Source: an uncultured Pelagibacteraceae bacterium
Lineage (GTDB): Bacteria; Pseudomonadota; Alphaproteobacteria; Pelagibacterales; Pelagibacteraceae
Length of the DNA: 64,000 nucleotides
Reading direction: 5' to 3'
NCBI GenBank assembly: GCA_902521355.1
Contig: CABYRT010000006.1
Location: 1-64,000, forward strand
The translations under genes were made by a program, and so were the position numbers. The notes under the pieces were generated by a model that saw only the letters and a program-made list of their open reading frames with translations, had not been told where the DNA came from and made no database searches. Within the stretch, counting starts at the first letter, position 1; each line of letters opens with the position of its first letter. Shown one piece after another: positions 3,485 to 46,752 of this stretch.

Positions 3485-4148
3485 GAACACACTTCTTAAA
3501 TTAAAAAAAATAAATCTCAAATACCAAACTGGAAAGGACAATATCAATGTTTTAAAAAATATTGATTTAACTATAAAAAAAAAAGAAACTGTATCTGTGG
3601 TTGGAGAAAGTGGGTCAGGAAAAACAAGCTTAATTATGCTTATTGGTGGACTAGAACGTCCAACCTCAGGGAAAATTATATTTCAAGACAGGGAAATAAC
3701 AAATCTTAATGAAGACGAAGTATCTGAAATTAGAAAGCAAAATATAGGAATTATATTTCAATCTTTCTATTTAATTCCAAATTATACAGCTGTTGAAAAT
3801 GTAGCTTTAACACTTGAACTTAATGAATTTAAAAATCCAGAGAAAGAAGCAAAAAGTTTATTAGATCGATTTGGTCTAAAACATAGATTCAATAATCTTC
3901 CAAGTCAATTATCTGGCGGCGAGCAACAACGTGTGGCGATTGCAAGAGCTATTGCAATGAAACCAGATTTGATTTTAGCTGATGAACCAACTGGTAATCT
4001 AGATACCGAAAATTCAATAATGATCTCTGAAATTTTATTTAAATACGTCAAAGAAGAAGGATCTTCTTTAATAATGGTCACACATGATCCAAAATTAGCA
4101 GACAAAGCAAAACGAAAAATTAAAATCAAAGATGGAAAAATTAAATAA
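3483..4148 (+). CDS. ybbA: ABC transporter ATP-binding protein, YbbA/LolD family
   Basis: A 221-residue ATPase of the LolD/MacB type. It has Walker A (GESGSGKTS), a Q-loop (FQSFYLIP), the signature LSGGEQQRVAIARA, Walker B (LILADEPTGNLD) and the H-loop (VTHDP). It should power the large permease encoded directly downstream, with which it overlaps by 17 bases. I start it at the ATG at 3483. An upstream in-frame start at 3435 adds a non-conserved tail inside the opposing esterase gene. With the chosen start the gene shares its start codon bases with tesA, so the promoter must lie within tesA or the transcript is leaderless. The substrate of YbbAP systems is not firmly established. Confidence 0.92.
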   Translation: MNTLLKLKKINLKYQTGKDNINVLKNIDLTIKKKETVSVVGESGSGKTSLIMLIGGLERPTSGKIIFQDREITNLNEDEVSEIRKQNIGIIFQSFYLIPNYTAVENVALTLELNEFKNPEKEAKSLLDRFGLKHRFNNLPSQLSGGEQQRVAIARAIAMKPDLILADEPTGNLDTENSIMISEILFKYVKEEGSSLIMVTHDPKLADKAKRKIKIKDGKIK

Positions 4149-33229: not shown

Positions 33230-33240
33230 TATGACATTAA

Positions 33241-34176
33241 ATGAAAAAACATAACAAAAATCTTCAATGGCATACTAACGTTCATATCTATGGTCTATCT
33301 TTAGCAATTGGAGATGCTCATTTCATGATAGATAAAATAAAAGCTGGAGAAGCTTATACAGAATATTTTTATAATATTGATGGGGAAAGAGAAGGTGAAC
33401 CTGAGGGTTTTGTTAATGAAGTTGATAATATATTAGGAAAAACAGTTAATTGTTTCACACTAAATATAAGTGGTTTAGGTTGGTTTCCAGTTTTTGATTC
33501 ATATTCCCCAGGAAAAGAGTATTTAGAAATAGATGGTTACTATATTGATTATGGAGGTGCTGTAACAACTCCTTGGTTTCAAAGACCTAAGTGTTTTTTT
33601 GAAAAAGAACATATTAAAATTATCAATAGTCTAATTGAAAAATCTTTAGAGAAAAAACCATTATTTACTCTAAGTTTTCCTTCAAAAAAAATTTTGTTTA
33701 TGGAAACAAAGGACCAGGTTCAATTTTATACCGAAAAAAAATTAAAAGTAGATTATTCAAAACCATCCAGTAAAGTATTTGATCAGTTACTCAAAATTTA
33801 TGAAAATGAAAAACTAGGTTTTATTAACGCAGATGTTAAAACTACAGAATACTGTTATGATTTTCATCTTGATCAATTATCTTCAGATAAGTTTGAAGTT
33901 TATAAAGTTGAAAGTTTAGTAAAAGATGTAGATTGGTATGCAGCTTATTATGCTAAATTTCATACAGATCAAAAAGATATTTATAAAAGAAAAATAACTT
34001 CTGAAGAAGATCAGAATAAAATGGATGAATGGTTATCAAAACAACCGTTGGCTAATGAAATGAAAGAGATCTTAGATCTTGCTAATTATGATCCGAACGC
34101 TCCTGAAATTGAAAGTTTTAAAACTACTATTGATCTACATGGTTATTTACATGGGTATTATTTAAAAGCAGTGTAA
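33241..34176 (+). CDS. Conserved hypothetical protein downstream of the TRAP genes
   Basis: A 311-residue soluble protein I do not recognise. It has no signal peptide or membrane helix and is rich in aromatic residues (Tyr, Phe, Trp) and acidic residues. Notable segments are the start NLQWHTNVHIYGLSLAIGDAHF, VNCFTLNISGLGWFPVFDSYSPGKEY, and the end TIDLHGYLHGYYLKAV. It starts 11 bases after the large permease and ends just before the accessory region, so it is probably part of the TRAP operon. It could be an enzyme acting on the imported substrate, but that is only positional inference. Confidence 0.7.
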   Translation: MKKHNKNLQWHTNVHIYGLSLAIGDAHFMIDKIKAGEAYTEYFYNIDGEREGEPEGFVNEVDNILGKTVNCFTLNISGLGWFPVFDSYSPGKEYLEIDGYYIDYGGAVTTPWFQRPKCFFEKEHIKIINSLIEKSLEKKPLFTLSFPSKKILFMETKDQVQFYTEKKLKVDYSKPSSKVFDQLLKIYENEKLGFINADVKTTEYCYDFHLDQLSSDKFEVYKVESLVKDVDWYAAYYAKFHTDQKDIYKRKITSEEDQNKMDEWLSKQPLANEMKEILDLANYDPNAPEIESFKTTIDLHGYLHGYYLKAV

Positions 34177-34228
34177 ATTATATATGAAAAAATCTGTTAA
34201 CTACTGTTCAAAATTATTTTTTAGTCTT

Positions 34229-34816
34229 TTACCTTCTATTATCCTCTATAGTCTTTTTTATAAGTTTTAGACTATCATCATTTGGAGGGTATGAATTGTC
34301 TGATATCTTAAAAAATTCTCCACCAGTTTTAAGTCTTAGTGTGTTCCCACCTCTTTGTGTAACTTCTATATATAAATAAACACCAGGCTCTCTAAGTTTT
34401 TTTAATTTCTCCCTAAACTCATTAGAAATTTTGACATCATATGGAGCTGTTTTAGATACTTGGTTATCTAGTGTTTGAGGTTTTAAATTATTAGTGTTGA
34501 AAGACTTATCTTTCAGTCTGTTATAAATAATTGTTTCTCCAATTATTATTCCTTTTGGTAATTCTTTTTGTATTTGATTAGCTGCACCCTCGACACTTAT
34601 AAAGCTATCTTTAGGTTGTTTATCAAAATATTTTTTTATTTCTTTGTTTTTAATTTCAGTGACTGATCCAAACTGAAATTTATTTTCGTACTCTTTTAAA
34701 ACTCTTACTGTATGACCACTTTGAGTACTTCCTGATGCACGAATAATTTCACTTCTACTTTCCCAACTTGTATTCCCTTTTTTTATTTGATCATCTAAAA
34801 AATCTCTAAACTTCAT
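34229..34816 (-). CDS. Hypothetical protein, last gene of the left accessory operon
   Basis: A 195-residue protein without recognisable homologues. It is hydrophilic and mixed alpha/beta; residues 1-60 contain RDFLDDQIKKGNTSWESRSEII and a basic patch. The segment SFISVEGAANQIQKELPKGIIIGETIIYNRLKDKSF at about 73-108 looks like a small helix-turn-helix-type fold with a P-K-G-I turn. Its ATG overlaps the stop of the previous gene (TAATG). It may be phage-derived or a DNA-binding helper of the nuclease operon, but there is no motif to prove this. Confidence 0.65.
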   Translation of the reverse strand: MKFRDFLDDQIKKGNTSWESRSEIIRASGSTQSGHTVRVLKEYENKFQFGSVTEIKNKEIKKYFDKQPKDSFISVEGAANQIQKELPKGIIIGETIIYNRLKDKSFNTNNLKPQTLDNQVSKTAPYDVKISNEFREKLKKLREPGVYLYIEVTQRGGNTLRLKTGGEFFKISDNSYPPNDDSLKLIKKTIEDNRR

Positions 34817-35172
34817 TAAATAATATTCAAATCTCTTTGTTTTTTAGTTCTTGCTCTATTTCTAAAAGTATCCTCATCTATTTGTTTATTCTCAAACTCT
34901 TTAATACTTTCCTCAGTTGAATGCTTATAAATTTCATTAATTGCTACTTTCCTTTTTCCATAATGACCAAACTTTAATCCAGGTCTTTCAGTTTCTTTTC
35001 TGGTTAATAAAGCATTTTCTTTTTTGGGATTTAATTTACCTTCACCACGAAAATCCTTTTTAGTCCACGTTGGATGTCTATCAATTATTTTCTGAATTTC
35101 TTCAATACTTCTGAGGACCCACTGGTTTGATCCATTGGGGTTTCTATTAAAATCTTTATTATTTTTTTTCAT
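34816..35172 (-). CDS. Hypothetical basic protein
   Basis: A 118-residue, very basic, hydrophilic protein rich in Lys, Arg, Asn and Glu with no membrane segment. There is a possible short helical repeat around residues 20-60 (IIDRHPTWTKKDFRGEGKLNPKKENALLTRKE). I do not recognise it. Its start overlaps the stop of the previous gene by 14 bases, and its stop overlaps the ATG of the next (TAATG). High charge suggests nucleic-acid contact, but that is a guess. Confidence 0.65.
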   Translation of the reverse strand: MKKNNKDFNRNPNGSNQWVLRSIEEIQKIIDRHPTWTKKDFRGEGKLNPKKENALLTRKETERPGLKFGHYGKRKVAINEIYKHSTEESIKEFENKQIDEDTFRNRARTKKQRDLNII

Positions 35173-35434
35173 CTTTATTTTCTTGTAACATTTTTATTTC
35201 AGTTTCAATCATTTCAAATTTATGACGATCACAAATATAACTAAAATACTTTATAGTGTTATAAGGAAGAAAATATAATTTTAAAATAAGATCCAAAACA
35301 GGTTTATCTTTATAAAATTCTTTTTTAGCACTTCTATATAAATCTCTGTGAGTCAAAGACCATCCAAGATAATTACGCCACTCGAGTCTATTTTCTAATC
35401 TTTCTTTGATTATTTCATCTAATTTATTTTTCAT
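35159..35434 (-). CDS. Hypothetical small protein
   Basis: A 91-residue protein with a start at the ATG at 35434, chosen because a GGGAG ribosome-binding sequence lies 10 bases upstream. A TTG at 35455 in the same frame is less likely. The product is helical and charged, with a more hydrophobic stretch near residues 45-58 (PVLDLILKLYFLPYNTIKYF). It overlaps the nuclease stop by 11 bases and the next gene by 14. No family is recognised. Confidence 0.65.
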   Translation of the reverse strand: MKNKLDEIIKERLENRLEWRNYLGWSLTHRDLYRSAKKEFYKDKPVLDLILKLYFLPYNTIKYFSYICDRHKFEMIETEIKMLQENKDEKK

Positions 35435-36134
35435 TTCGATGTTCTCCCAAATCAATTTGTTTTTTGGTAAAATTGCAAAAATTACAATCTTTGTTAAAGC
35501 TTGGAATAGTAGGTTGCTCCAATAAATCTATTAACTTAGTTATATAATTATAAAAACCACTCTCATCTCTATTGAGTGTAGAATAAGATGTTTTCATTTT
35601 TAAATCACAATCATGATCAGTATGGCTTGTGATTTCTTTTGGATAAAATTGCAAAATACCCATGTGAGTTATAGGACTTAGTTTTGGTGTTTTGGCCTTT
35701 TTGGTTGATCCAGGGCTTGAAAATATTTGCGCATAAGCCTCCAGTTGAAACCTATAATTTTCTGCTTTATCTAAAGAAATTACTGTTGTCTTAAAATCAA
35801 CTATTCCGAAACTTTTATCTTTAAATTTTATAACAATATCAGGATTACCAGCTAAGATAAATTTACGTTTTTTATCATCAACTAAACCATCAGATACTAT
35901 TTTGCCCGGTAGTTCATTACTATCCATAATCTCACCATCTGGAAGGTCGTCACACCAAGACTTTGTATTTGTTTTTTTAAAATAAGGTTTTTGAACTGCA
36001 TCAAAACTTGAAAAAACTGGAGGTGGTCTATCTCCAGGATTAATTTTGTTATGCTTATGAATATAAAAACATCTTGAGCATTTCTTGGCTTTATAATCAA
36101 GTTCAGAAGGTGAAAATGAATATTCTATAGTCAT
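35424..36134 (-). CDS. PD-(D/E)XK (RecB/Cas4-like) nuclease with two CxxC pairs
   Basis: A 236-residue nuclease-fold protein. The catalytic core is AGNPDIVIKF (Asp99), IVDFKTT (Asp113, Lys115) and the RecB-type QxxxY motif FQLEAYAQ (Gln130, Tyr134). These match the PDDEXK_1/RecB family. Cys19 and Cys22 (CSRC), together with Cys217 and Cys220 (CNFC), bracket the core and resemble the Fe-S or zinc clasp of Cas4 and AddB nucleases. It is the third gene of the left accessory operon. No other CRISPR gene is present, so it is not a CRISPR Cas4 in context. A role in phage or plasmid DNA processing is inference. Confidence 0.8.
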   Translation of the reverse strand: MTIEYSFSPSELDYKAKKCSRCFYIHKHNKINPGDRPPPVFSSFDAVQKPYFKKTNTKSWCDDLPDGEIMDSNELPGKIVSDGLVDDKKRKFILAGNPDIVIKFKDKSFGIVDFKTTVISLDKAENYRFQLEAYAQIFSSPGSTKKAKTPKLSPITHMGILQFYPKEITSHTDHDCDLKMKTSYSTLNRDESGFYNYITKLIDLLEQPTIPSFNKDCNFCNFTKKQIDLGEHRNEK

Positions 36135-36292
36135 TAATATACCTCCGATATGTATCTGATTAATTGAGGTTTTGTTTCTGACTCTCCTATAATCTTAATT
36201 GTTTCATTTATCTCCATATAAACTCTATAGTAATGTCTACCTTCCTCGATGTCCCTTACTTCTTCAACTCTAATCTCATGTATTTTGTCCAT
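36134..36292 (-). CDS. Small 52-residue protein between the regulator and the nuclease
   Basis: This is a short reading frame with both ends coupled. Its ATG overlaps the stop of the upstream regulator (TAATG), and its TAA overlaps the nuclease ATG in the same way. The product begins MDKIHEIRVEEVRDIEEG and contains a strand-rich, strongly acidic segment (HYYRVYMEINETIKIIGES). A GAGG-like ribosome-binding sequence precedes the nuclease start inside its end. The coupling on both sides is strong evidence that it is translated. It could be a nuclease inhibitor or cofactor; function is unknown. Confidence 0.6.
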   Translation of the reverse strand: MDKIHEIRVEEVRDIEEGRHYYRVYMEINETIKIIGESETKPQLIRYISEVY

Positions 36293-36507
36293 TAGTTAAC
36301 CTCCCACTTTTGGTCGGCCGCTATATGAGGATTAAGTTCTTCTATTACTTCTTGTTTATATTTATCGTTTGCAAGATTAACTAACATTCTAACTACTTGT
36401 GCTCTCGAGATTGCTACTCCTGGTACAAGAGTTTTTGTTAGTTCATCTATTTTTTTGTAACAATCAATATGGATAGAAATTGATTTATATTTTAATGGGT
36501 TTGCCAT
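36292..36507 (-). CDS. Small ribbon-helix-helix-like DNA-binding protein (putative regulator)
   Basis: A 71-residue protein. The first part, KYKSISIHIDCYKKIDELTKTLVPGVAISRAQVVRMLVNLAN, has the strand-helix-helix pattern of small ribbon-helix-helix repressors: a basic strand, then a helix with KKID, a turn, and a helix with SRAQVVRMLV. It heads the left operon and has a good ribosome-binding site (AGAAAGGA). The untranslated leader carries a triplicated TAGAT/CAGAT repeat and a 12-base dyad that could be its operator. Autoregulation is inference. Confidence 0.65.
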   Translation of the reverse strand: MANPLKYKSISIHIDCYKKIDELTKTLVPGVAISRAQVVRMLVNLANDKYKQEVIEELNPHIAADQKWEVN

Positions 36508-36530
36508 TTCTTTTATCCTTTCTAAACCAA

Positions 36531-36545
36531 TAGATCAGATTAGAT
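36531..36545. repeat. Three tandem 5-mers (TAGAT CAGAT TAGAT), candidate operator
   Basis: Three adjacent 5-base units lie 24 bases upstream of the ribbon-helix-helix-like gene. Ribbon-helix-helix regulators are known to bind short direct or inverted repeats. In an AT-rich leader this could arise by chance. Confidence 0.35.
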
Positions 36546-36588
36546 AAAATGAAATTAATATTATTTTTATACTTTCTTTTTACCATTT

Positions 36589-36600
36589 GAACCTTGGTTC
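36589..36600. promoter_or_regulatory. 12-base dyad GAACC-TT-GGTTC, candidate operator or -35 element
   Basis: A perfect 5-base inverted repeat with a 2-base spacer lies about 82 bases upstream of the regulator start. On the minus strand its right arm ends as GGTTCA, followed 16 bases later by TATAAA, a plausible promoter pair for the left operon. The dyad would then overlap the -35. Confidence 0.4.
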
Positions 36601-36711
36601 TATTTATTTTAATTGGAAAAAGAAAAAAGAAATCACATCTGGTCTACTAGTTCTTACATACGGCTTAGATAAGGCGCTTTCTGCACTAGTTTCAGGCGAT
36701 GTAATTTTTTA

Positions 36712-36786
36712 TAGCGGTTAGCAATATAAATTTAAAGAAAGTAAAAAAAGAATTTATATAACAAACCGCTACAAACTTACTTTCTT
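36712..36786. other. Nested hairpin with loop-tail complementarity (possible pseudoknot)
   Basis: TAGCGGTT (36712-36719) pairs with AACCGCTA (36764-36771). Inside it, ATATAAATT (36724-36732) pairs with AATTTATAT (36751-36759), leaving a 4x4 internal loop. The apical loop contains AAGAAAGTAA (36735-36744), which is exactly complementary to TTACTTTCTT (36777-36786) just outside the hairpin. This is the layout of an H-type pseudoknot. No U-run follows on either strand, so it is not an intrinsic terminator. Confidence 0.45.
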
Positions 36787-36837
36787 CTTAAGCCATATAC
36801 ATCATATAATAATCACATTACATTTTGCAAGATAATA

Positions 36838-37119
36838 TTATTTTTTTTTATCTTTTATTACAAAACCATTTTTTTCTAAAACTTTTATAAGGTTTTTAAG
36901 CATAACATCTCTTGGTGTCTTATGATTTCCTATACTTTCTAGGAATAAAAGTTTTTTTTTACTGTTACCGTTAAACCATTTAACTTTATTTTTGTCTAAT
37001 TTTAGTTGCTTTTCTTTTTCGTTCATTTTTTCTCCTTTTTTTGATTTGGAGAAAGTCATAAAACTACCTTTAAAAATTGGATCTCTTTTACTTAAAGGTT
37101 TAAGATTGATTATGGCCAT
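36838..37119 (-). CDS. Hypothetical 93-residue basic protein
   Basis: A small Lys-rich protein (about a quarter Lys) of unknown family. Two starts are possible. The ATG at 37119 follows AAAGGAG, and an internal in-frame ATG at 37026 (62 residues) follows AAGGAG, so both have strong ribosome-binding sites. The C-terminal part, VKWFNGNSKKKLLFLESIGNHKTPRDVMLKNLIKVLEKNGFV, is predicted helical. It is divergent from the methyltransferase gene with a 120-base gap between them. It may regulate the methyltransferase or be an unrelated accessory gene. Confidence 0.6.
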   Translation of the reverse strand: MAIINLKPLSKRDPIFKGSFMTFSKSKKGEKMNEKEKQLKLDKNKVKWFNGNSKKKLLFLESIGNHKTPRDVMLKNLIKVLEKNGFVIKDKKK

Positions 37120-37239
37120 ATTTCTCCTTTAGCGTTATTTTTTTATGTCTGAAGCAAGTAGAGTAATTCTAAATCACAGACAAATTACTTATAACATCTA
37201 TTTTTCGCTTAGCAAATAGTTATAATTTATAATTGATTC

Positions 37240-38253
37240 GTGAAAAAAATAACCTCAATTGACTTGTTTGCTGGTGTTGGTGGTATGAGAATATCATTAA
37301 TTAGAGCTGCTAGAAAATTAGGATTAAATGATGAATGTAAGCTATATTCTGAAATTGATGAACATTGCAAAAAAACTTACGAAAAGAACTTTCCAAATAC
37401 AAAACTCATAAAAGATATTAAATCTATCAAAAAAAAAGAAATAAATGAAAGAATATCAAATCATGATATTTTACTTGCAGGATTTCCATGCCAACCCTTC
37501 TCAAAAGCAGGTGTTTCTAATAGAAAATTCCTAAAAAGAGCACATGGCTTTGATGACAAAGATCAAGGTGATCTTTTTTTTAATATATATGAAATTCTTA
37601 AAGTAAAAAAACCTAGAGCATTTATTTTAGAAAATGTTCAAAATTTACAAAGTTACTCAAATGGCAAAGTCCTTGATGAAATGCTTAAAAAATTGAGAAA
37701 GTATTATTATGTTCCTGATCCAAAAATTTTAGATGCACAAGATTTCGGTTTGGCACAAAGAAGAAGAAGAATATATATTGTTGGATTTTTGGAGTACCAT
37801 GAAAAGTTTATTTATCCTGAACCAACGCTAAAAAAGGTACAAGTTAAAGATTTTTTAGACAGAACAGTAGATAAAAAATATGTAATTTCAGATAAATTAT
37901 GGATTAGTCATCAAAATAGAAGGAGAAGGAATAGAAAAAATGGGAAAGGATTTGGATTTAAGCTTACTGATCCCAGTGAAAAATGTACCAGAACGATTTC
38001 TTCAAGATACTATAAAGATGGAAGTGAGTGTTTAATTTTTAGAGGTGAAAATAGAAATCCAAGAAAACTAACGCCAAGAGAGGTTTTTAGACTTCAAGGT
38101 TTTCCAGAAAGTTTCAAATTTCCAGTATCTGATCTTCAAGCGTATAAACAAGCAGGAAATGCTGTTCCTATAAATGTTGTTGAAAAAGTTTGTTTTGAAG
38201 TATTAAAGTATTTAATTAAATCAGATAAATTTTGGTTAGGAAAAGTTAGTTAA
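37240..38253 (+). CDS. C5-cytosine DNA methyltransferase
   Basis: A 337-residue methyltransferase with every core motif in order: I DLFAGVGGM (residues 8-16), IV AGFPCQPFS with catalytic Cys84, VI ENVQ (131-134), VIII QRRRRIYIVG (173-182), IX RKLTPREVFRLQGFP and X QAGNAVP (304-310). The target-recognition region between VIII and IX is short, about 95 residues. The start is a GTG at 37240 with no ribosome-binding site and TATAAT 14 bases upstream, so translation may be leaderless. It converges with the AIPR gene with a 4-base overlap. It would mark host DNA for the neighbouring restriction-type operon. The target sequence is unknown. Confidence 0.93.
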   Translation: MKKITSIDLFAGVGGMRISLIRAARKLGLNDECKLYSEIDEHCKKTYEKNFPNTKLIKDIKSIKKKEINERISNHDILLAGFPCQPFSKAGVSNRKFLKRAHGFDDKDQGDLFFNIYEILKVKKPRAFILENVQNLQSYSNGKVLDEMLKKLRKYYYVPDPKILDAQDFGLAQRRRRIYIVGFLEYHEKFIYPEPTLKKVQVKDFLDRTVDKKYVISDKLWISHQNRRRRNRKNGKGFGFKLTDPSEKCTRTISSRYYKDGSECLIFRGENRNPRKLTPREVFRLQGFPESFKFPVSDLQAYKQAGNAVPINVVEKVCFEVLKYLIKSDKFWLGKVS

Positions 38254-40298
38254 ATTATATCTGCTTCTTCAGCTTTATTTATCATTTTCAGAGCACTTTT
38301 CGCTTGTTTTGGTGATGGTTGCCTTTTCCAATTTGTAAGTGATTGCATCCACAAACTTGTAGCTATTTGTAACTGAATATAATGAAAGTCATCTGTTTCG
38401 TGCGCCCAAGCTATCATCTTCTCCCAATCTCTTGTACTTAAATTTTTACATTTTTTTATATTATCCATATCCTCTGGTGAAAAAATCTCTTTAGCTATTT
38501 TCACTGGCTTGCCAGCAACTTTTTTTAAATTTGTAAACTCAGGCGGTGTATTTGAAAAAGAAAAGGTGCGATCAGTTATATCTTTCCAACATTCCTCTTT
38601 TTTGCACCATTCAGAAATATTTTTTCCGCTAGCTGTTTTTTGAATAATTTCATAAATTTTAAAACTCCATTTATTTATCAAATCTTGAAATTGATTTGAT
38701 ATGTCTTGATCGGCCCAAATCAAGTCGAAGTTTATTTTTCTACTTGTATGATAAGATATCAAAGATATGGTATAATTTAAAACTTGGGACCTGTAGCCTG
38801 CTATTGAAACATTATCTTTTATTATTTTGGTTGTTTTATCGAATAATATTGCGATGGTGCAATATTTAATGAAAAAGTCGTCATCAATTTTTTCATGAAA
38901 TTTTTTATCATTTAATAAATTCATAAATGTAACAAAACTTTTTTGTGCTCCAGTACAAGCAACATGTGGATCTAAGTAATGCCAACAATTTATAAATTTG
39001 CCTAGGTCCTCTTTTGTAAACTTCATATTTGAAGGTGATAATTCAAGAAATCTGGATTTTTTCTTTTTTCCAAGATCTTTTTGCTTCATTTTCTGCATTT
39101 GGTACTCTCCACGCATTCTTTCATAAAACCATTGCTTTCCTTCAGAAGTTCTTATTTTATTTGAAAGATTTTTTATATTAATATGAAAAGGGTGCCTTGA
39201 TGAAAAATCAGCTTTTTTCACTACATTTTGAGTGTTAGCGAATTCAGATATTTTAGGAACAACTTCGCTAAGGCTTTCTTTTTTTACTAATGTTATTTTT
39301 GCTGGAACAACCACATTATCATAACGTATTTTATGATCTTGTTTTTTTGTTCTAAATAATGTTGCTGTGGTTTGTCCACCATTAACTATTTGAAATCCGT
39401 TAGCACTTTTTATAAAGAGACCATTTTTATCATGACCAATATCTATATTGTCTACAACTACAACTATCCCATTATTATACGAAAAAAATCTCTCTGGCTC
39501 ATTTATTAATGTATCTCTAATTCCTTTGTTAATTTTTGTTCCAAGTTGTAAAAATGATCTAACATTAAGATTTAACAATCTTTGACCGAACAATCGGTAG
39601 ATGTTGTATAATACTTCTCCTGGTATAAAAGCCATATAACTACTAATTTTGTCAAATGTTTTATGAGCTAACATACATCTGACCTTTTCCTTAAATTTAG
39701 TGAAATCAATCCTTATATTTGTAGTGTCTGGTCCTCCTAAGCTTGAACTATAGATTCTTCTAGTATCTAAAAGATAATTTTGAAATTCTATCTTTCCTTC
39801 TCTTTCTATATTTGGATTTTTTTCACATAAAGCGTTCGTCAAAACAAAAATTCTTACCGTAGAAATATCTTTTGAATTCTTATAGATATTTTTTGATATA
39901 TCGTAAGCATCTTCTTTTTTATTTATTTTTTCATATAATTTTTTTGTTGAATAAATATAAAAGTTCTTAGCTGCATTAATTAATTCTTGAACTTTATTAT
40001 ATTTAATTTCTTGAATGTTATCTGATGGATCATAATGAGTAACGAAAAGATCTAGTCGTAAATCTTCCTCACTAAAAGAAAAGCCATTTACTTTTATATC
40101 AATTTTATTGGAAATGTGTTTTTCAAAATACAAAAGTTCGTAATCTGATATTGTTCCATTATCATATAATATGTCTGTATATATTTTAGTTAAGATTGCA
40201 GCTGGTTGATCATCAGACTCTTCTACTTCATTTTTGACTCTATGAAAAAAGTTTTTTATATAGGCATCTTTAATATTTTGCTTTAATTCAGACTTCAT
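38250..40298 (-). CDS. AIPR family protein (abortive infection phage resistance)
   Basis: A 682-residue protein. The AIPR signature is at about residues 247-310: RSFLQLGTKINKGIRDTL, FFSYNNGIVVVVDNI and NGFQIVNGGQTTATLF. These segments define the family (PF10592-type). AIPR proteins are recurrent in phage-resistance loci and in methyltransferase-Z1 clusters, where their biochemical role is not settled. An N-terminal region (DLRLDLFVTHYDP) could be nuclease-like but I cannot confirm catalytic residues. It is the last gene of the operon and its start overlaps the PD-(D/E)XK stop by 4 bases. Confidence 0.9.
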   Translation of the reverse strand: MKSELKQNIKDAYIKNFFHRVKNEVEESDDQPAAILTKIYTDILYDNGTISDYELLYFEKHISNKIDIKVNGFSFSEEDLRLDLFVTHYDPSDNIQEIKYNKVQELINAAKNFYIYSTKKLYEKINKKEDAYDISKNIYKNSKDISTVRIFVLTNALCEKNPNIEREGKIEFQNYLLDTRRIYSSSLGGPDTTNIRIDFTKFKEKVRCMLAHKTFDKISSYMAFIPGEVLYNIYRLFGQRLLNLNVRSFLQLGTKINKGIRDTLINEPERFFSYNNGIVVVVDNIDIGHDKNGLFIKSANGFQIVNGGQTTATLFRTKKQDHKIRYDNVVVPAKITLVKKESLSEVVPKISEFANTQNVVKKADFSSRHPFHINIKNLSNKIRTSEGKQWFYERMRGEYQMQKMKQKDLGKKKKSRFLELSPSNMKFTKEDLGKFINCWHYLDPHVACTGAQKSFVTFMNLLNDKKFHEKIDDDFFIKYCTIAILFDKTTKIIKDNVSIAGYRSQVLNYTISLISYHTSRKINFDLIWADQDISNQFQDLINKWSFKIYEIIQKTASGKNISEWCKKEECWKDITDRTFSFSNTPPEFTNLKKVAGKPVKIAKEIFSPEDMDNIKKCKNLSTRDWEKMIAWAHETDDFHYIQLQIATSLWMQSLTNWKRQPSPKQAKSALKMINKAEEADII

Positions 40299-41287
40299 AA
40301 TTTTTGTAACATTGTATCAGTATTTATTCTAAATTCTTCACATTTATCTAAATCAATTTTATATGTAATTGAGAGATCAAATATAGGCTCATGTTCCACG
40401 ACCCTTTTAATATGTGGAAATTTTTCAGATACAAAATAAAATATTTTTTCGTTTAATGAATATTTATCGTTATATTCATCTTCGTGAATATTATAATAAC
40501 CAGATTGCCTTAATTTCAAATAAAAGTTATTTAATAAAACCTCAGAGTTTTTTGAAAACTTTTCACTTAATTCATGAACCAACATATTTAAAGATTTACC
40601 GTTTATATTTTTTTCAATTTTGACGTAAGCTAAATATAATGGTTTATCAAAAATTGGAGATAATTGATCAGTGCTAGATGTGCTCACAATTTTTTTTTCT
40701 CTATTTTTTGATGTCTTTGTTTCTAACAACATATTTGGCAAAGTAAAATCATGCTTTTGAGATGGTCCTGTCCAAAAATCTAAATTAATACTATCTGAAT
40801 TTTTTTTAATTATTTCATCTAATATTATTAACTCTCCAAATAAACCAGTTTCTTTTTCTGGTGAAAGCTTTCTAGGTAATTCTTCTGTATCAAAAAAATT
40901 TTTAGCAGACAAAAGTTCTTCAAAAAAATATTGTATACTTTCTTGTTCATTAAAATCATTCAGATAAATTTTCGTTAATATTAAATTTATAATATCTTTA
41001 AAAAAATCGCTAAAATCATTATTTTTTAAAGTCATAATAATATTTTTATCGATAATTTCTATACTCCAACCTTTGCATTGAGGAATTGAGTCTTTATCAA
41101 CTTTTTTTATATTATTTGTTACTATTAACAATCCAGGAGTATTATTTGTATCTAATGTAATTATAAAAACTTCAGAGATTCTAATTTTACCTTTTCCAGC
41201 CTTTTTAAAATCTTCATCATCTTTTATTCTTTGTTCTATTTGTTTCCATTGGTTGTTAAGATATTTTTGATAATCTATAAAATCCAT
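40295..41287 (-). CDS. PD-(D/E)XK motif protein (DUF4420-type putative endonuclease)
   Basis: A 330-residue protein with the nuclease core ETGLFGELIILDEII (Glu152), FWTGPSQKHDF (Asp180) and MLLETKTSK (Glu189, Lys191), which fits the PD-(D/E)XK arrangement. Such proteins are always found beside Z1 and GHKL ATPase genes in restriction-modification-like loci, so this is the probable DNA-cutting subunit. All catalytic residues are present. It is coupled to AIPR by a 4-base overlap and lies 15 bases after the Z1 gene. Confidence 0.88.
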   Translation of the reverse strand: MDFIDYQKYLNNQWKQIEQRIKDDEDFKKAGKGKIRISEVFIITLDTNNTPGLLIVTNNIKKVDKDSIPQCKGWSIEIIDKNIIMTLKNNDFSDFFKDIINLILTKIYLNDFNEQESIQYFFEELLSAKNFFDTEELPRKLSPEKETGLFGELIILDEIIKKNSDSINLDFWTGPSQKHDFTLPNMLLETKTSKNREKKIVSTSSTDQLSPIFDKPLYLAYVKIEKNINGKSLNMLVHELSEKFSKNSEVLLNNFYLKLRQSGYYNIHEDEYNDKYSLNEKIFYFVSEKFPHIKRVVEHEPIFDLSITYKIDLDKCEEFRINTDTMLQKL

Positions 41288-41302
41288 AGAATAAATTAAT
41301 TT

Positions 41303-44300
41303 TTAAGCAGCATCCTCTTCTTTTTCTATATTTAAAAAATCTAACAAATTTTGTTTTCTGTGTTCTAGGGCAACTCTATTCAGTGCAACATTATAAACTA
41401 GATCATCATTATCACCCTCTTCTTTTGTGGGTGGTATAATAATCTCCCAACCTACATGAAGATCTTGCTCTAAACGTAATTTTGAATCTTTATCATTCAT
41501 AATATTAACTCCATCTGGTTTGATTAGCCAAGGTGTTAAAATAAAAATTCCTTCTTTTCTTTTCTGTCTTATTTTACTTTTGAAACCGTATGGTAATTTA
41601 TTATCTTTTTTTTCCTCTGTTTTGCCTGTTGCTTTATACATGCTTATCCAATTATCTAATCCTTGATCAAAAATTTCTTTTTCTATATCCACAAACTCTG
41701 CCCTCGGATCTGATTGTACTCCTATTGAAAATTCGTTATTTTGAAGATACTTTTTTTTACTAGGAGCTGATAATCCACGCTCACTAAGTTTTATGTCTAT
41801 TTTGGACTTATTGCCGACCGTAAAATCTATTTTTTCTTTATCTCCTAAGGACCATATTGCAAAATTCCACTTTATTCTGGGTCTATGATTTTTTAATTCT
41901 CTAATTCTAAAAGCTATATCATGTGGATGACTATCGGTAAAAGCTCGTCTTGGCATTTTGTATTTCAATAAAAATTTTACAATTTCATCTGGATCCACAT
42001 CTTTCCATAAGTGTCCTTTAGTAATACTTTTCTTAGTGTCTTTAGGAATTTTTTTTAAGATTTCCTCTTTTTCTAAACTTGGATCAATTTTTTCTTTAAT
42101 TTTTTTTGGCAACCATATATTTGCATTTTTTAATCTTCTATTAATCTCATTTTCAGTTTCGTCACATTTTCCAAATTTATCAATTAAATTATGAAATAAA
42201 TTTATATTTGTTTCCCTAGAATTTTTATCTTTATGAAATACAATATTCTGATGATGTCTTGAGCTATAAGAATAAAGTGGCTCTGGTAATTCTACTAAAT
42301 CTTTTGATTTTGATGCTGCAATTAAATTCCATCCATCAAAAGTTGGAATTTCCATAGAAAATTCAATTGGTGTCTTTGGAGGTTCTGCGGTTTGCATTTC
42401 TCTAAACTTTTCTCTTGCAAATTCCATTGCATAAGTAAATTGTCTAAATAAAATGTGCAAAATTTTAGGAACATAAATTCTATATAAATCCTCGTAGCCT
42501 TGTCGATAACCAAACCAACGACCCATTTGTGTTAAAGTATCTGAAACAGGTGTTTTAGCAATTCTTAAAAAATAACTAACACTTAATCCTTCTAAAGTTA
42601 TTCCTCTTGATATAGCTGCTCCACCAATGACTATAACATTCCAACCATTTTTTTTATTTTCATAATCTAAAATATCTGTCGAATTACTATTAATTTGAAT
42701 CACATCAAATTTTTCTTCATCATTTATCTCTTTTACTAAATTTTTCCATACATCTTCAAATTTTAGTTCTTTTGAGTCTTTATTTTTTGTATTGTCCAAA
42801 TTTTTTGAAATATCTTCATTCCATATCTTGAGGAACTTATTTTTTATAAATTCGACTTTTTTTTTGTCAATTTCATTTGTAAATATATTATTTAAATCTT
42901 TAACATAATTCTTTATTTGTTTAATAACCGTGTTTTGAACACTCACAAACCTTGAAACATGTATTAGCATTGAGTTATGTTGTATTTCATCACTCCTTAA
43001 AGATTTGATACCGATGTTTATTAGGAAAGTAATAATTGCATCTTCAAGACTATTTGGAATTTTATCCTCATCTTTATATAAACATGGATGATGTTGTTTA
43101 TGATACAAAGGAACCCAACCTTTGGGTTCATCGTACCCTCTTTTACCCTCATTTCTATAGGCTTCATCCCTTTTTTCTTCATCAATTTCACCAGTATCTA
43201 AATTTGTAAATTCATCAAAATCGTCTCGGTAGTCATAAACCCATTTAATCTGAGGATAATCATTTTGATCAATGTCTTCAGATAAGCTTACTATTTCGTT
43301 ATCATCATCAAAATTTCTTTCTGCCTTACCGAAAATTTTTCTTGGGCTCTGATATGAGTCATATCGTTTTAAAAGTTTAACAAAATCTCTAGGAAATAAA
43401 TCTCTACCTTCTTGTTTCTTAATAGAAGTATAATCAATAAAAATGTTTGCTAAAGGAGTGGCAGTATATCCTATATATGCATTTCTTTTAAAACACGCCA
43501 TAATTCTTCTTATTAATAAATTTGTTTTTGAAGGATCAGCTAGTCTGAATGCTTCTAACTCATCAGTATCATCAATATTTGATAAAGCAGTTTTGCGCTT
43601 ACTGATATCTATTGATGCACTATCACACTCATCATCAATTATTAATAAAGGAAGATCACATTCAATTTTATTTTTAGGTAAATTTTCAGAAACATATTCT
43701 TTAAAACCATTCCAACTCCATGGGACTTTTGGGTCATACTTAATGCCTGGCTGACTATTAAGCCATACTAAAATGTTAGAAAGTACAGGTACATTTTTTT
43801 TTATGACAAATATGGCTGGATCTAAATTTGGAAGCAATGCAACAGTTTTTGCAGTTTTAGCATTGAAGTCACCATTGAATTCCATAACTTTTATACCGTC
43901 TATATATTTGTACTTAGGTTTTTGTGTCATAAAATTGACTGCGTACACATCTTCACCTTTTCTTGGATCTGAAGTTGAAATTAAGTTATCCATCAACCTA
44001 GTTTGAGTCTGAGCTCTTAGACTATTGTAAATCCCACTCATGACAATTATCATTTTGTATCCACAATCTATTGCTTTGGCGATTAAAGCGTTATAATTAG
44101 AGGTTTTTCCAGATTGAACATCACCTACAACCATGCCTTTCGTTTCCCAATTTCCTTGTCTTCCAGGTCTTTCTAAATCTTGCAATATTTCATTTGTGGA
44201 AACATCAATGTCATTTGAAACTATTTTCCCTAATTTATTCTCAAGATTTTTTTTGTAATAAGCATATTGTGAACTTGTATAAATTTTATTTTCCCATAAT

Positions 44301-44581
44301 TTTTTTGTATTATCATTAAACCATGGTTCATGATTTCTATCTTTGGCTTTTGCTCTCAACGTCATGTCATTTTCCATTGTTGTTGCAAAAGTTTTTTCTA
44401 TAAAAACAATTATTTGTGCCTTAACTTTTTTTGCTTCGGGATATGTTTTGAATAAATCCTCTAAAAATTCATCTATATCTTTTTTATTTTTTGGATACCA
44501 TGACTTGGAATTTTTTTTTTTAATACCAAAATAATCTATATGTCCATTGATAACTGGAATAAAAGCTTCTAAATCATTCAT
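41303..44581 (-). CDS. Z1 domain-containing helicase-like ATPase
   Basis: A 1092-residue superfamily-II-like ATPase. Walker A is GDVQSGKT (residues 153-160), followed by the Ia-like SGIYNSLRAQTQ. The DEAD-like box is IDDECD (315-320), motif III-like GYTATPLANIF lies near 370, and the C-terminal half has GGAAISRGITLEGL and the arginine-finger motif QMGRWFGYR. The Z1 domain is the middle to C-terminal part. In this family of systems the Z1 protein is thought to translocate or remodel DNA for the nuclease. Its start overlaps the GHKL gene stop by 4 bases. It is the largest gene of the island. Confidence 0.92.
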   Translation of the reverse strand: MNDLEAFIPVINGHIDYFGIKKKNSKSWYPKNKKDIDEFLEDLFKTYPEAKKVKAQIIVFIEKTFATTMENDMTLRAKAKDRNHEPWFNDNTKKLWENKIYTSSQYAYYKKNLENKLGKIVSNDIDVSTNEILQDLERPGRQGNWETKGMVVGDVQSGKTSNYNALIAKAIDCGYKMIIVMSGIYNSLRAQTQTRLMDNLISTSDPRKGEDVYAVNFMTQKPKYKYIDGIKVMEFNGDFNAKTAKTVALLPNLDPAIFVIKKNVPVLSNILVWLNSQPGIKYDPKVPWSWNGFKEYVSENLPKNKIECDLPLLIIDDECDSASIDISKRKTALSNIDDTDELEAFRLADPSKTNLLIRRIMACFKRNAYIGYTATPLANIFIDYTSIKKQEGRDLFPRDFVKLLKRYDSYQSPRKIFGKAERNFDDDNEIVSLSEDIDQNDYPQIKWVYDYRDDFDEFTNLDTGEIDEEKRDEAYRNEGKRGYDEPKGWVPLYHKQHHPCLYKDEDKIPNSLEDAIITFLINIGIKSLRSDEIQHNSMLIHVSRFVSVQNTVIKQIKNYVKDLNNIFTNEIDKKKVEFIKNKFLKIWNEDISKNLDNTKNKDSKELKFEDVWKNLVKEINDEEKFDVIQINSNSTDILDYENKKNGWNVIVIGGAAISRGITLEGLSVSYFLRIAKTPVSDTLTQMGRWFGYRQGYEDLYRIYVPKILHILFRQFTYAMEFAREKFREMQTAEPPKTPIEFSMEIPTFDGWNLIAASKSKDLVELPEPLYSYSSRHHQNIVFHKDKNSRETNINLFHNLIDKFGKCDETENEINRRLKNANIWLPKKIKEKIDPSLEKEEILKKIPKDTKKSITKGHLWKDVDPDEIVKFLLKYKMPRRAFTDSHPHDIAFRIRELKNHRPRIKWNFAIWSLGDKEKIDFTVGNKSKIDIKLSERGLSAPSKKKYLQNNEFSIGVQSDPRAEFVDIEKEIFDQGLDNWISMYKATGKTEEKKDNKLPYGFKSKIRQKRKEGIFILTPWLIKPDGVNIMNDKDSKLRLEQDLHVGWEIIIPPTKEEGDNDDLVYNVALNRVALEHRKQNLLDFLNIEKEEDAA

Positions 44582-45768
44582 TTAATTTTATTTACTAATT
44601 CTCCTATTTTACTCAGTTCCTCTTCATTAATTAATTTATTTTTTAACATTCTAATTATTTCATTTTTTCTTTTCAATGTTTCGTTAATAGGCTCTTTTTC
44701 TTTATCTCTTAATTGATTTATTTTTTCAATATAATCCCTCCTAATATGAATAAGACTTTTGCGGATTTTATTTATTGCATAACTTGGGATTATTACTTTG
44801 TTTTTTGAATAAGTTATCCAATCTTTACTTGTTTCAATTGGTATATCAACTTCAATTCTAAGCCTATTATATCTTTCATTGTTACTCCAAAATCTATCTT
44901 CATTTTTATCACCAAGTCCGAACCAACCACCATAGTCAATTACTCTTCTATTTCTTAAAAAATATAAACCTTGCAAATCATTTTTGTTTTTTCCAAGATT
45001 CTCTTTAGTTGTCTCAAGGGGAATTATATATGGTTTTAAAATTGTCTGCCCTCCTTTAAGAAAACTAATTTCAGTATTCTCCAGTTTAATTGTCTCTGGA
45101 TTTTTTTTATAAAATGGATCAATAGATTTAGTTTTGTTAATTTCGTTAGTGCCTTGAAAATAAATATTAATTTTATTATCTAATAAATATTTATGATAAA
45201 TTAATTTAAAATGCTTTTTTGATTTATCACAATCTTCATAAAAATTCGGCCCTCTATCACTTGCTCTCATTTCTGAGATTTTATCTAGGTTTGATAGAAT
45301 AATAACCGTTCCATTTTCTCTAAATTTGAAATCATCTATATGCTTTTTTATAAATTTATGATTAATGCAGTCTGGCATCTTGTCTGTTAATCCATCTTCA
45401 AAATTTAAAGTTTTTTTTAACAATTTCTTTTTTTTTGTAATAATAGTTATTGAGGTACAATGGTTAAAAGAACCAGTTTTTAGACCTAAACCATAAACAG
45501 AATGACCTTCTTTTTTTTGATCGATTATGTCATCTTTTGGTATTGTTAATGCTTTATTTAAAAGTTCATTTTCATTCATGCCATCCCCATCATCAACAAC
45601 CATAATGAATGAATCCTTTCCGGTATCATCGCTCCAATACATGTAAACCCAAATATTATTTGCATTATGAGTTATGCTATTATCCGCTAACTCAGCTAGC
45701 GATTGTTCTAATGTATAACCTTGCGATCTTAGTTTTTTAAAATAAAAAGCATCGAAATTTTTACTCAT
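44578..45768 (-). CDS. GHKL ATPase (MutL/MORC-like), restriction-system type
   Basis: A 396-residue ATPase of the HSP90/MutL/histidine-kinase superfamily. The N box is SLAELADNSITHNA (Glu26, Asn30), the G1 box DDGDGMN (59-65) and the G2 box YGLGLKTGS (92-100), so all ATP-binding motifs are intact. Bacterial relatives of eukaryotic MORC ATPases (paraMORC group) are known from restriction-modification-like operons with exactly these partners. Such ATPases act as ATP-gated dimeric clamps. The C-terminal half is charged and helical. The gene overlaps the TerB-like gene by 8 bases and the Z1 gene by 4. Confidence 0.92.
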   Translation of the reverse strand: MSKNFDAFYFKKLRSQGYTLEQSLAELADNSITHNANNIWVYMYWSDDTGKDSFIMVVDDGDGMNENELLNKALTIPKDDIIDQKKEGHSVYGLGLKTGSFNHCTSITIITKKKKLLKKTLNFEDGLTDKMPDCINHKFIKKHIDDFKFRENGTVIILSNLDKISEMRASDRGPNFYEDCDKSKKHFKLIYHKYLLDNKINIYFQGTNEINKTKSIDPFYKKNPETIKLENTEISFLKGGQTILKPYIIPLETTKENLGKNKNDLQGLYFLRNRRVIDYGGWFGLGDKNEDRFWSNNERYNRLRIEVDIPIETSKDWITYSKNKVIIPSYAINKIRKSLIHIRRDYIEKINQLRDKEKEPINETLKRKNEIIRMLKNKLINEEELSKIGELVNKIK

Positions 45769-46105
45769 GTTCTAAATACATTCCCCATTCATCAGCAATA
45801 ATTTGAAAAGCAAATAACTCTTTTTGATGAACAATTTTATCCTTAGTGATCATTTCTGATAACAGCTCAATAGTTTTTTCCCTATCCTCCTTATTGATTA
45901 TTTTGTTAGCTGTTTCTCTACATTCTTTAGTAATATTTTTTGATTGTTCGACTTCTTCTATTATCTGTTGTTTTTTGCGATCTGGGATTGTCAATTTTTC
46001 AGATATTTCATTTATAAGTTCTTTTTCCTCCTCCATATAAACTTTGTCTGCGAAAGCCATTAGAAGTAATAATTTTAGGATTAATAAATTATTTTCGCTG
46101 CTCAT
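45761..46105 (-). CDS. TerB-like helical protein heading the defence operon
   Basis: A 114-residue all-helical protein. LLLLMAFADKVYMEEEKELINEI and LLSEMITKDKIVHQKELFAFQIIADEWGM form two similar helix-D-helix-E units, the layout of the TerB/DUF533 family, whose members have acidic metal-binding sites. It is the first gene of a five-gene operon, overlaps the GHKL gene by 8 bases, and has no obvious ribosome-binding site. TerB-like domains often occur with ATPases or restriction genes, but a direct role in this type of cluster is not something I can cite. Family assignment is moderate confidence. Confidence 0.65.
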   Translation of the reverse strand: MSSENNLLILKLLLLMAFADKVYMEEEKELINEISEKLTIPDRKKQQIIEEVEQSKNITKECRETANKIINKEDREKTIELLSEMITKDKIVHQKELFAFQIIADEWGMYLEHE

Positions 46106-46180
46106 TATTAATTTTTATTATACAAAATTAAGACAAATTTGGGACCAATTATTAACTAGCTTTTATGCAATACTTTAATA

Positions 46181-46738
46181 ATGCATTGGAAACCATTTCT
46201 CATTTTGCAGATAGCAGCTTTTTTCCTTAATCTCCTTTCAAATGCTTATGCGGATGAGAAATGGACCATAAAAAAATTTAAAAGTGTGTCTTATGCAATA
46301 GTGTCTGGAGAAGTTCAAAGTGAAGATAAACTGGGGTTTTTTATTAGTAACGAAGATAATTGCAAAAAGGTTTGGCAAACATTCTCTTTTCTAACATTTG
46401 AGCAACCTGGAGATATAAAACAACTTTTACACAAACATTTACCTATAAAACTAAATGGTAATGAACTCACAGCCAAAGTTGAGGAGATACTGCCTCATTC
46501 AAGAGGATATAAAATTATTTTTAGTTTAGGAGAATTTCCAATAGGTGAGTATGTGCAATATCTTTATGATTTTTATGGAGTAGAAAAAAAATTTGAAATA
46601 GAAATTATTGATGGAATAGACTTTAAAGTTAAAAAATATTTTGATATTCCAATTAATAACTGGAAACTTGAGAACTTGGCGCCATCTATAACTAGAGCCA
46701 CAAAACTCTGTTTAGATATTAATCAGACAAAATCTTAA
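46181..46738 (+). CDS. Hypothetical exported protein
   Basis: A 185-residue protein with a signal peptide of about 24 residues (KPFLILQIAAFFLNLLSNAYA, cleavage near DEKW). The mature part is predicted beta-rich with some helices and has two cysteines. It begins 75 bases from the TerB-like start, on the opposite strand, so it marks the right boundary of the accessory region. I do not recognise a family; a periplasmic or envelope role is inferred from the signal peptide only. Confidence 0.7.
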   Translation: MHWKPFLILQIAAFFLNLLSNAYADEKWTIKKFKSVSYAIVSGEVQSEDKLGFFISNEDNCKKVWQTFSFLTFEQPGDIKQLLHKHLPIKLNGNELTAKVEEILPHSRGYKIIFSLGEFPIGEYVQYLYDFYGVEKKFEIEIIDGIDFKVKKYFDIPINNWKLENLAPSITRATKLCLDINQTKS

Positions 46739-46752
46739 ATTGATTAGTTTCC

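Follow-up and report, generated by a model that had tools for sequence, protein, structure and literature searches.

The stretch of DNA analyzed here, referred to as the window, comprises 64,000 nucleotides (nt) of contig CABYRT010000006.1 (assembly GCA_902521355.1) from an uncultured Pelagibacteraceae bacterium. At positions 37240-46105, it holds six adjacent genes that probably form a restriction-modification-type defense locus built around a MORC ATPase and a Z1 motor. An initial annotation had placed these genes in named families, and the assignment stands. All six open reading frames (ORFs) are open and intact, and profile searches of each protein, which the annotation had proposed as a check, returned the expected Pfam families, all above the curated cutoffs (DNA_methylase, 1.8e-80; AIPR, 8.4e-79, with AIPR_N, 9.8e-29; DUF4420, 9.8e-45; Z1, 1.2e-61; HATPase_c_3, 7.8e-20; TerB, 3e-07). 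Five of the genes lie on the minus strand in the order TerB, MORC-type GHKL ATPase, Z1, DUF4420, and AIPR. Because these genes overlap (by 8 nt between TerB and MORC and by 4 nt each between MORC and Z1 and between DUF4420 and AIPR) or nearly touch (a gap of 15 nt between Z1 and DUF4420), we read them as one operon that starts with TerB at position 46105. The methyltransferase gene, on the plus strand, converges on the AIPR gene with a 4-nt overlap. Scans for promoters (44, versus 55.4 in shuffled sequence) and terminators (3 versus 2.6) revealed no enrichment and were uninformative.

The motifs named in the initial annotation are intact and are kept in alignments of relatives. The C5-cytosine DNA methyltransferase (337 amino acids [aa]; 37240..38253, plus strand), recognized by Pfam and by alignment, retains C84 in 77/77 aligned rows. 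Four of the remaining proteins are relatives of MzaB, MzaC, MzaD, and MzaE from MZA (mzaABCDE), a system reportedly described by Gao in 2020. The MzaD relative, a DUF4420 PD-(D/E)XK nuclease that corresponds to the NRE of Iyer 2008 (330 aa; 40295..41287, minus strand), keeps E152, D180, E189, and K191 in 92/92 rows. The MzaC relative, a Z1 superfamily-2 helicase-like ATPase (1,092 aa; 41303..44581, minus strand), is invariant in 14/14 rows at G153, V155, Q156 to T160 (Walker A), D316, D317, E318, and D320. Z1 also displays the motif DTLTQMGRWFG at residue 681, and the DThhQXuRhFG pattern, used here with Thr allowed in one hydrophobic place, as in the window protein, occurs in 82 of the 91 loci surveyed below.

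The MzaB relative is a MORC-type GHKL ATPase (396 aa; 44578..45768, minus strand) that lacks the C-terminal tail found in most relatives. It shares D29, N30, D59, G93, G95, and K97 with all 101 aligned rows; at the usual position of the catalytic glutamate, the window has E26, and 94/101 rows have Asp. Its MORC motif, GLYFLRNRRVI, begins at residue 267, and the strict GhXhhpXXRhl pattern is found in 88/91 loci. A profile built from 37 relatives retrieved MORC4, MORC3, and MORC2 as its first matches among solved structures. Moreover, a structural model made for a relative (locus L143), rather than for the window protein, best matched MORC3 (Z, 24.7) and MORC2 (24.4), followed by Hsp90 (19.8). 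Among phage records, there were three weak MORC matches. The suggestion that the locus is likely functional fits these intact motifs, although activity is predicted from sequence only.

The gene neighborhood was compared across 108 stretches, namely, 20 with MORC matches from 398 genomes searched (21 genomes matched, that of the window included), 6 with Z1 matches in relatives, the best 80 Z1 loci among the matches listed from genome contigs, genome G583, and the window. Adjacent MORC and Z1 genes were present in 98 of these (10 were dropped); removal of identical Z1 proteins left 95, and leaving out four relatives' loci with a short Z1 type left 91 distinct loci. All five core genes, for MORC, Z1, DUF4420, AIPR, and a methyltransferase, occur in the stretch in 81/91 loci, with individual counts of 85 for the methyltransferase (anywhere in the stretch), 87 for DUF4420, 83 for AIPR, and 4 for TerB. 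Seven of the 10 incomplete loci lie in stretches shorter than 14 kb, and so their missing genes may simply be cut off; because the sample leans toward close Z1 matches, the fractions are not population frequencies. The five-gene set spans Pseudomonadota, Actinomycetota, Cyanobacteriota, Bacteroidota, Chloroflexota, Bacillota, methanogens, and others. Consequently, the conserved six-gene neighborhood that had been anticipated holds for the five-gene core but not for TerB as a regular member, and the six genes together represent an infrequent form of that core. A different arrangement was seen in an Acidimicrobiaceae metagenome-assembled genome (L141:6133-14058), where the AIPR gene precedes the MORC, Z1, and DUF4420 genes rather than following them.

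Z1 restriction loci were found in 5 of 60 other same-genus genomes searched, and a locus of this sort is thus no exception within the genus. A second class of Z1 restriction locus, with Z1 proteins of 835 to 872 aa, also exists in the genus (L039, L040, L041, and L042, in G022, G059, G046, and G053, respectively); its stretches hold one or two cytosine methyltransferase genes, with MORC in 3/4 and DUF4420 in 2/4. Viral contigs contained no confirmed Z1 relatives in a search whose single-protein query reaches close relatives only, and among plasmids, 42 records had a Z1 match, none of them at 60% identity. Many tblastn matches from the same order to approximately residues 39 to 153 of Z1 were treated as spurious, probably arising via composition, because the one that was read (L008:1444-2322) encodes an acyltransferase-like protein.

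The first gene of the operon encodes a TerB-like protein of 114 aa (45761..46105, minus strand; PF05099, 3e-07, 31.2 bits against a cutoff of 24.4). TerB is present in 2 of 201 same-genus genomes, that of the window included, and in four of the 91 distinct loci: the window, L064, L146, and L075, the last from alphaproteobacterium AG-915-O06. In all four, it lies directly before MORC. L075 belongs to a distant alphaproteobacterium, and its TerB is 27% identical to that of the window. Among complete Z1-adjacent MORC proteins, those of the four TerB loci are also the shortest (394 to 442 aa); the others have at least 482 aa, and one incomplete protein of 249 aa lies at a contig end. In a tree of AIPR proteins made with a quick method, the four TerB loci form one group (support, 99), a grouping that carries the tool's warning about long-branch attraction.

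Elsewhere, the position preceding MORC varies in content and is often occupied by the methyltransferase gene itself. We scanned 51 proteins encoded upstream of MORC, comprising the 4 TerB proteins and 47 of 131 upstream ORFs still without a family, selected for proximity. PADLOC MzaA was matched by 23, sigma-70 region 4 by 24, ankyrin by 21, and Vsr by 3. MzaA, which consists of ankyrin plus sigma-70 regions, thus holds the pre-MORC slot in many relatives. There is no MzaA at the window locus, and in the assembly, which is 84.85% complete, the sole match to the PADLOC MzaA model is a sigma factor on contig 12. L075 has a sigma-70 region 4 protein as well as TerB. Upstream of TerB in that stretch (L075:3931-8173) are genes for an AAA_15 ATPase, a 381-aa protein without a Pfam family, and the 292-aa sigma-70 region 4 protein, which may belong to this system or to another one.

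The methyltransferase resembles Dcm in its target-recognition region. Its identity to Escherichia coli Dcm is 41%, versus 25 to 27% to three methyltransferases aligned from other loci, and it has a GxGFG...RYYKDG stretch in common with Dcm. The string RYYKDG occurs in 5 of the 103 methyltransferases of the surveyed stretches, those of the four TerB loci and of L083. The L075 enzyme is of the same subtype (53% identical) and is accompanied by Vsr and EcoRII-C genes. The best solved-structure match of the window protein is 3me5, a cytosine methyltransferase. The target of the window enzyme is probably CCWGG or a close relative; this is a guess from resemblance, which the likeness to Dcm and the company of Vsr and EcoRII-C in L075 make a reasonable one.

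The AIPR protein (682 aa; 38250..40298, minus strand), an MzaE relative according to Pfam, PADLOC, and NCBIfam, was modeled with AlphaFold from a 45-sequence alignment. The mean predicted local distance difference test score was 85.6, and the predicted template modeling score was 0.52, and so the domain packing is uncertain. Residues 1 to 188 of the model resemble restriction-enzyme folds (1y88, Z of 10.0; FokI, 9.0; MspJI, 7.5; HamA, 7.4), with Can2, McrC, and Shedu among further matches and some unrelated chains mixed in from a Z of 6.5 down. Residues 214 to 360 gave a weaker ParB/Srx match, with Z scores below the telling level of 8 (pNOB8 ParB, 6.4; SspE, 5.0). Foldseek returned no AIPR match at an expectation value (E) of 0.001 or better, and profile searches of solved structures with AIPR and Z1 returned none at an E of 0.1. 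The first domain has no conserved PD-(D/E)XK triad; its charged columns are D83 (76%), D178 (97%), and R181 (93%). A candidate nuclease motif, E97-x-K99, was rejected, Glu being present at that column in 6/86 rows. Conservation is strongest in the second domain (N275, N276, G277, V305, N306, G307, Q309, and T310 in 86/86 rows), where an active or ligand site is therefore more likely.

By eye, the IVNGGQTT stretch of AIPR resembles the IDGQQRLTT of GQQR-type proteins. A sequence relationship to DUF262 (GmrSD_N) was rejected after hhalign comparison with 17 proteins bearing the GQQR-type pattern, of which L205 is probably a false ORF, gave nothing. DndB has a ParB/Srx-like fold, and the HEPN motif is R-x4-6-H. 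AIPR has been linked to DndB, given an N-terminal toxic HEPN part, and noted for its frequent association with restriction systems (PMC3506569). The DndB link fits the modeled AIPR fold, and in the absence of a sequence link to DUF262, the ParB/Srx idea rests on structure, on the by-eye IVNGGQTT likeness, and on this published connection. As for HEPN, the modeled N terminus has strands through residues 54 to 177 and is not helical; R-x4-6-H appears anywhere within the first 200 residues in 46/86 rows, and no well-filled histidine column exceeds 60%. For this branch, the AIPR model argues against the HEPN assignment in the literature.

The six genes occupy the span initially given for the locus, and the inserted DNA is larger. 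Comparison with empty sites delimits an island of 13.5 kb (about 33230..46742) between a tripartite ATP-independent periplasmic (TRAP)-transporter gene, whose stop codon ends at 33229, and hisI/hisF. Of 16 hisF-side stretches from same-genus relatives, whose hisF proteins are 96 to 100% identical, 13 hold both flanks (match of at least 150 nt). In six of these (L176, L177, L179, L180, L181, and L185), the TRAP gene and the hisI side are joined within ~0 to 50 nt. Six others (L172, L173, L175, L182, L183, and L184) carry other DNA of 0.8 to 3.6 kb at the site, and in L174, the flanks join directly, with 2.7 kb of additional DNA preceding hisI. The TRAP end was not seen within the stretch in L178, L186, and L187. 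The island has a G+C content of 0.278, versus 0.286 and 0.290 outside.

Three Pelagibacter-type copies of the locus are available: the window, L064 (Pelagibacteraceae single cell AG-461-A11), whose Z1 protein is 88% identical to that of the window, and L146 (same-genus genome G583). The G583 copy lies on a contig other than that of hisF. The L064 copy adjoins a membrane-protein gene, a by-eye lookalike of which flanks a different Z1/methyltransferase locus in G037. All three copies are open, and the nonsynonymous substitution rate (dN) is lower than the synonymous rate (dS) in 18/18 pairwise comparisons, with dS above 1, and then unreliable, in 16 of the 18, one of these infinite. From these sequences, selection seems to have kept the proteins. 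The locus has apparently been acquired horizontally and is apparently mobile.

Other island genes flank the locus. A Cas4/RecB-like PDDEXK_1 protein of 236 aa, recognized by Pfam, is encoded at 35424..36134 (minus strand), and a 185-aa protein with a signal-peptide-like start (by eye) and no Pfam family is encoded at 46181..46738 (plus strand). These genes are present in 13/201 and 22/201 same-genus genomes, respectively (that of the window included in both counts), and homologues of both adjoin the locus in G583 (L146). Homologues of both also lie ~1 kb apart in same-genus genome G544 (contig 2, 18537-20505), with no TerB match listed. Two small protein families without a Pfam match, at 34816-35172 and 35159-35434, are possible island genes of marine alphaproteobacteria; by-eye lookalikes lie beside Z1 restriction loci in G037 (L038:2708-3103 and 4145-4435), and the first is also seen by eye at L075:18516-18968.

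Taken together, we consider it likely that the locus was acquired horizontally and serves as an ATP-driven defense module of the restriction-modification type and MORC/Z1 kind. Several lines of evidence point in this direction, including the families and motifs, the five-gene set in 81/91 loci, the published motifs, the empty site in 6/13 relatives, the copy located elsewhere in G583, a dN lower than dS throughout, the Dcm-like region of the methyltransferase, and the Vsr and EcoRII-C genes of L075. Precedents exist for a Z1 motor in CglI/NgoAVII and for TerB in other defense systems. In the mechanism that we propose, the methyltransferase would mark host DNA, with a Dcm-like sequence such as CCWGG or a close relative as its probable target. 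The Z1 motor would hydrolyze ATP and move along DNA without the host mark, as proposed for the N subunits of CglI/NgoAVII, while a MORC dimer would clamp or loop the DNA, looping by the MORC part having been proposed by Iyer 2008 (PMC2292703). The DUF4420 nuclease would then cut. AIPR may be a second, nucleotide-gated module, with AIPR and TerB acting as a switch or a second effector. TerB, made first, would replace MzaA in its slot and probably gates or localizes the MORC ATPase, as a Shango-type TerB might.

Several observations weigh against this interpretation. In PADLOC and NCBIfam, four window proteins match MzaB to MzaE best, and the NCBIfam scores in bits (MzaB, 120 against a cutoff of 850; MzaC, 461 against 1,500; MzaD, 102 against 420; MzaE, 368 against 1,050) do not reach the equivalog level and are so far below it that results for MZA may not carry over. 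The methyltransferase count of 85/91 includes any such gene up to ~10 kb away, not only adjacent ones. The window shows no avoidance of CCWGG (44 sites versus 32.4 expected). Protection and methylation are predictions, and the TerB role is putative. In addition, the idea that TerB is a split-off MORC tail or a piece of MzaA was rejected, profile comparison with a four-row TerB alignment having found no kinship.

How much weight TerB deserves bears on a first alternative, according to which the locus is an ordinary MZA-like system and TerB is a chance passenger. The Mza matches just described and the rarity of TerB (4/91) are what this account would predict, and we regard it as possible, if rather unlikely. 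It sits poorly with the absence of mzaA from the locus, the sole match in the genome being the sigma factor on another contig. Also, TerB stands directly before MORC even in the distant L075, at 27% identity, and is found with the shortest complete Z1-adjacent MORC proteins (394 to 442 aa, the next being 482 aa).

A second alternative, an abortive or dormancy system, we judge unlikely. Here, AIPR would be a toxin-like effector that shuts down the cell, TerB and MORC would form a switch, the DNA-handling subunits would sense infection, and the methyltransferase would serve only for self-marking or be a bystander. Abortive infection gave AIPR its name, and the restriction-system association and predicted toxic HEPN part of AIPR (PMC3506569) are in keeping with such a role, as are the regulator-like proteins that often fill the pre-MORC slot (PADLOC MzaA in 23 of 51 scanned; TerB in 4). 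However, the AIPR model starts with an alpha/beta restriction-enzyme-like domain and not a helical HEPN, and a methyltransferase gene in 85/91 stretches fits self/nonself marking. An epigenetic or phase regulator, in which the methyltransferase cooperates with a MORC/Z1 pair that condenses or remodels DNA, is very improbable: despite the resemblance of the MORC profile to eukaryotic MORCs and the MORC3/MORC2 matches of the relative's model (Z, 24.7/24.4), the distribution is patchy and mobile, the nuclease motif is intact in 92/92 rows, and Vsr, Mrr, or EcoRII-C restriction genes lie near some related loci.

Within the restriction-modification-type reading, we tentatively propose a more specific one, whose parts taken jointly are doubtful. 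The locus might represent a marine alphaproteobacterial MORC/Z1 subtype in which TerB instead of MzaA controls a trimmed MORC, with a Dcm-like methyltransferase and AIPR as an SspE/DndB-like machine made of a ParB/Srx-fold nucleotide switch and a restriction-enzyme-fold domain without the usual catalytic residues. If this is true, TerB would be a common trigger for helicase/ATPase defense in several systems.

Eukaryotic chromatin MORCs have been proposed to derive from bacterial MORC proteins (Iyer 2008; PMC2292703), and in the literature searched, we found little experimental work on MORC restriction systems. The present locus is complete, exists in three Pelagibacter-type copies that can be compared, and connects MORC with TerB, and deletions in it could probe what AIPR and TerB do. 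It is also in line with a view of streamlined SAR11-type genomes as gaining and losing entire defense islands. For specialists, the points of interest are TerB in place of MzaA and the fold of AIPR.

Compared with MZA, the locus has the relatives of MzaB to MzaE in the order B-C-D-E, reportedly that of MZA itself, but it is without MzaA and instead has a methyltransferase and TerB. TerB is a component of Shango (PMC10250203) and Bunzi (PMC10952713) and, by a review's account, of Dionysus (PMC12926258). Like Shango, the window locus combines a TerB-like protein, an ATPase, and a helicase; this is an analogy only, drawn by description, and Shango is described as a three-gene system. No Shango model is among the PADLOC matches listed, the coverage of Shango in that PADLOC version being unchecked. 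Text searches of the literature, with subscription journals mostly outside their coverage, showed no published TerB-bearing MORC/Z1 locus among the papers listed.

CglI/NgoAVII resembles the locus in its C5-methyltransferase, Z1-containing ATPase motor, and separate nuclease. The ATPase of its Z1-containing subunit acts on nonmethylated DNA, and translocation has been proposed to precede cutting by the nuclease (PMC4267653); the claim that the role of Z1 is largely untested was thus too strong, since this motor has been studied biochemically. That nuclease is PLD-B3 rather than DUF4420, and the available text describes no MORC, AIPR, or TerB partner.

The closest descriptions are of the same five-gene kind. 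The third type of MORC restriction-modification operon of Iyer, Abhiman, and Aravind 2008 (PMC2292703), to which the initial annotation had linked the locus, is marked by the MORC motif and, specifically, by DThhQXuRhFG, and a figure legend names AIPR, DCM (the cytosine methylase), NRE, and Candidatus Pelagibacter. The window locus shares with it the MORC ATPase, the superfamily-2 helicase, the E-D-ExK nuclease, DCM, and AIPR; all four marks examined (MORC motif, helicase motif, E-D-ExK, and cytosine methylase with AIPR) are present, which bears out the link. TerB, which the window locus has, is absent from the available text of that paper. The set also appears as a putative "type II" defense system (PMC9523054) comprising Z1, PD-(D/E)XK (printed DUF4220), a cytosine methyltransferase, AIPR, and MORC, few with mzaA, and through PADLOC and NCBIfam as MzaB-E relatives. 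The window locus shares all five type II components, and TerB is unmentioned in the text available. A Corynebacterium island likewise holds Z1, DUF4420, and a Dcm-like methylase (PMC5379612). From these three descriptions, this kind of locus is already known in its five-gene form; what sets the window locus apart is TerB before a shortened MORC and the Dcm-like recognition region of its methyltransferase, along with the modeled AIPR fold.

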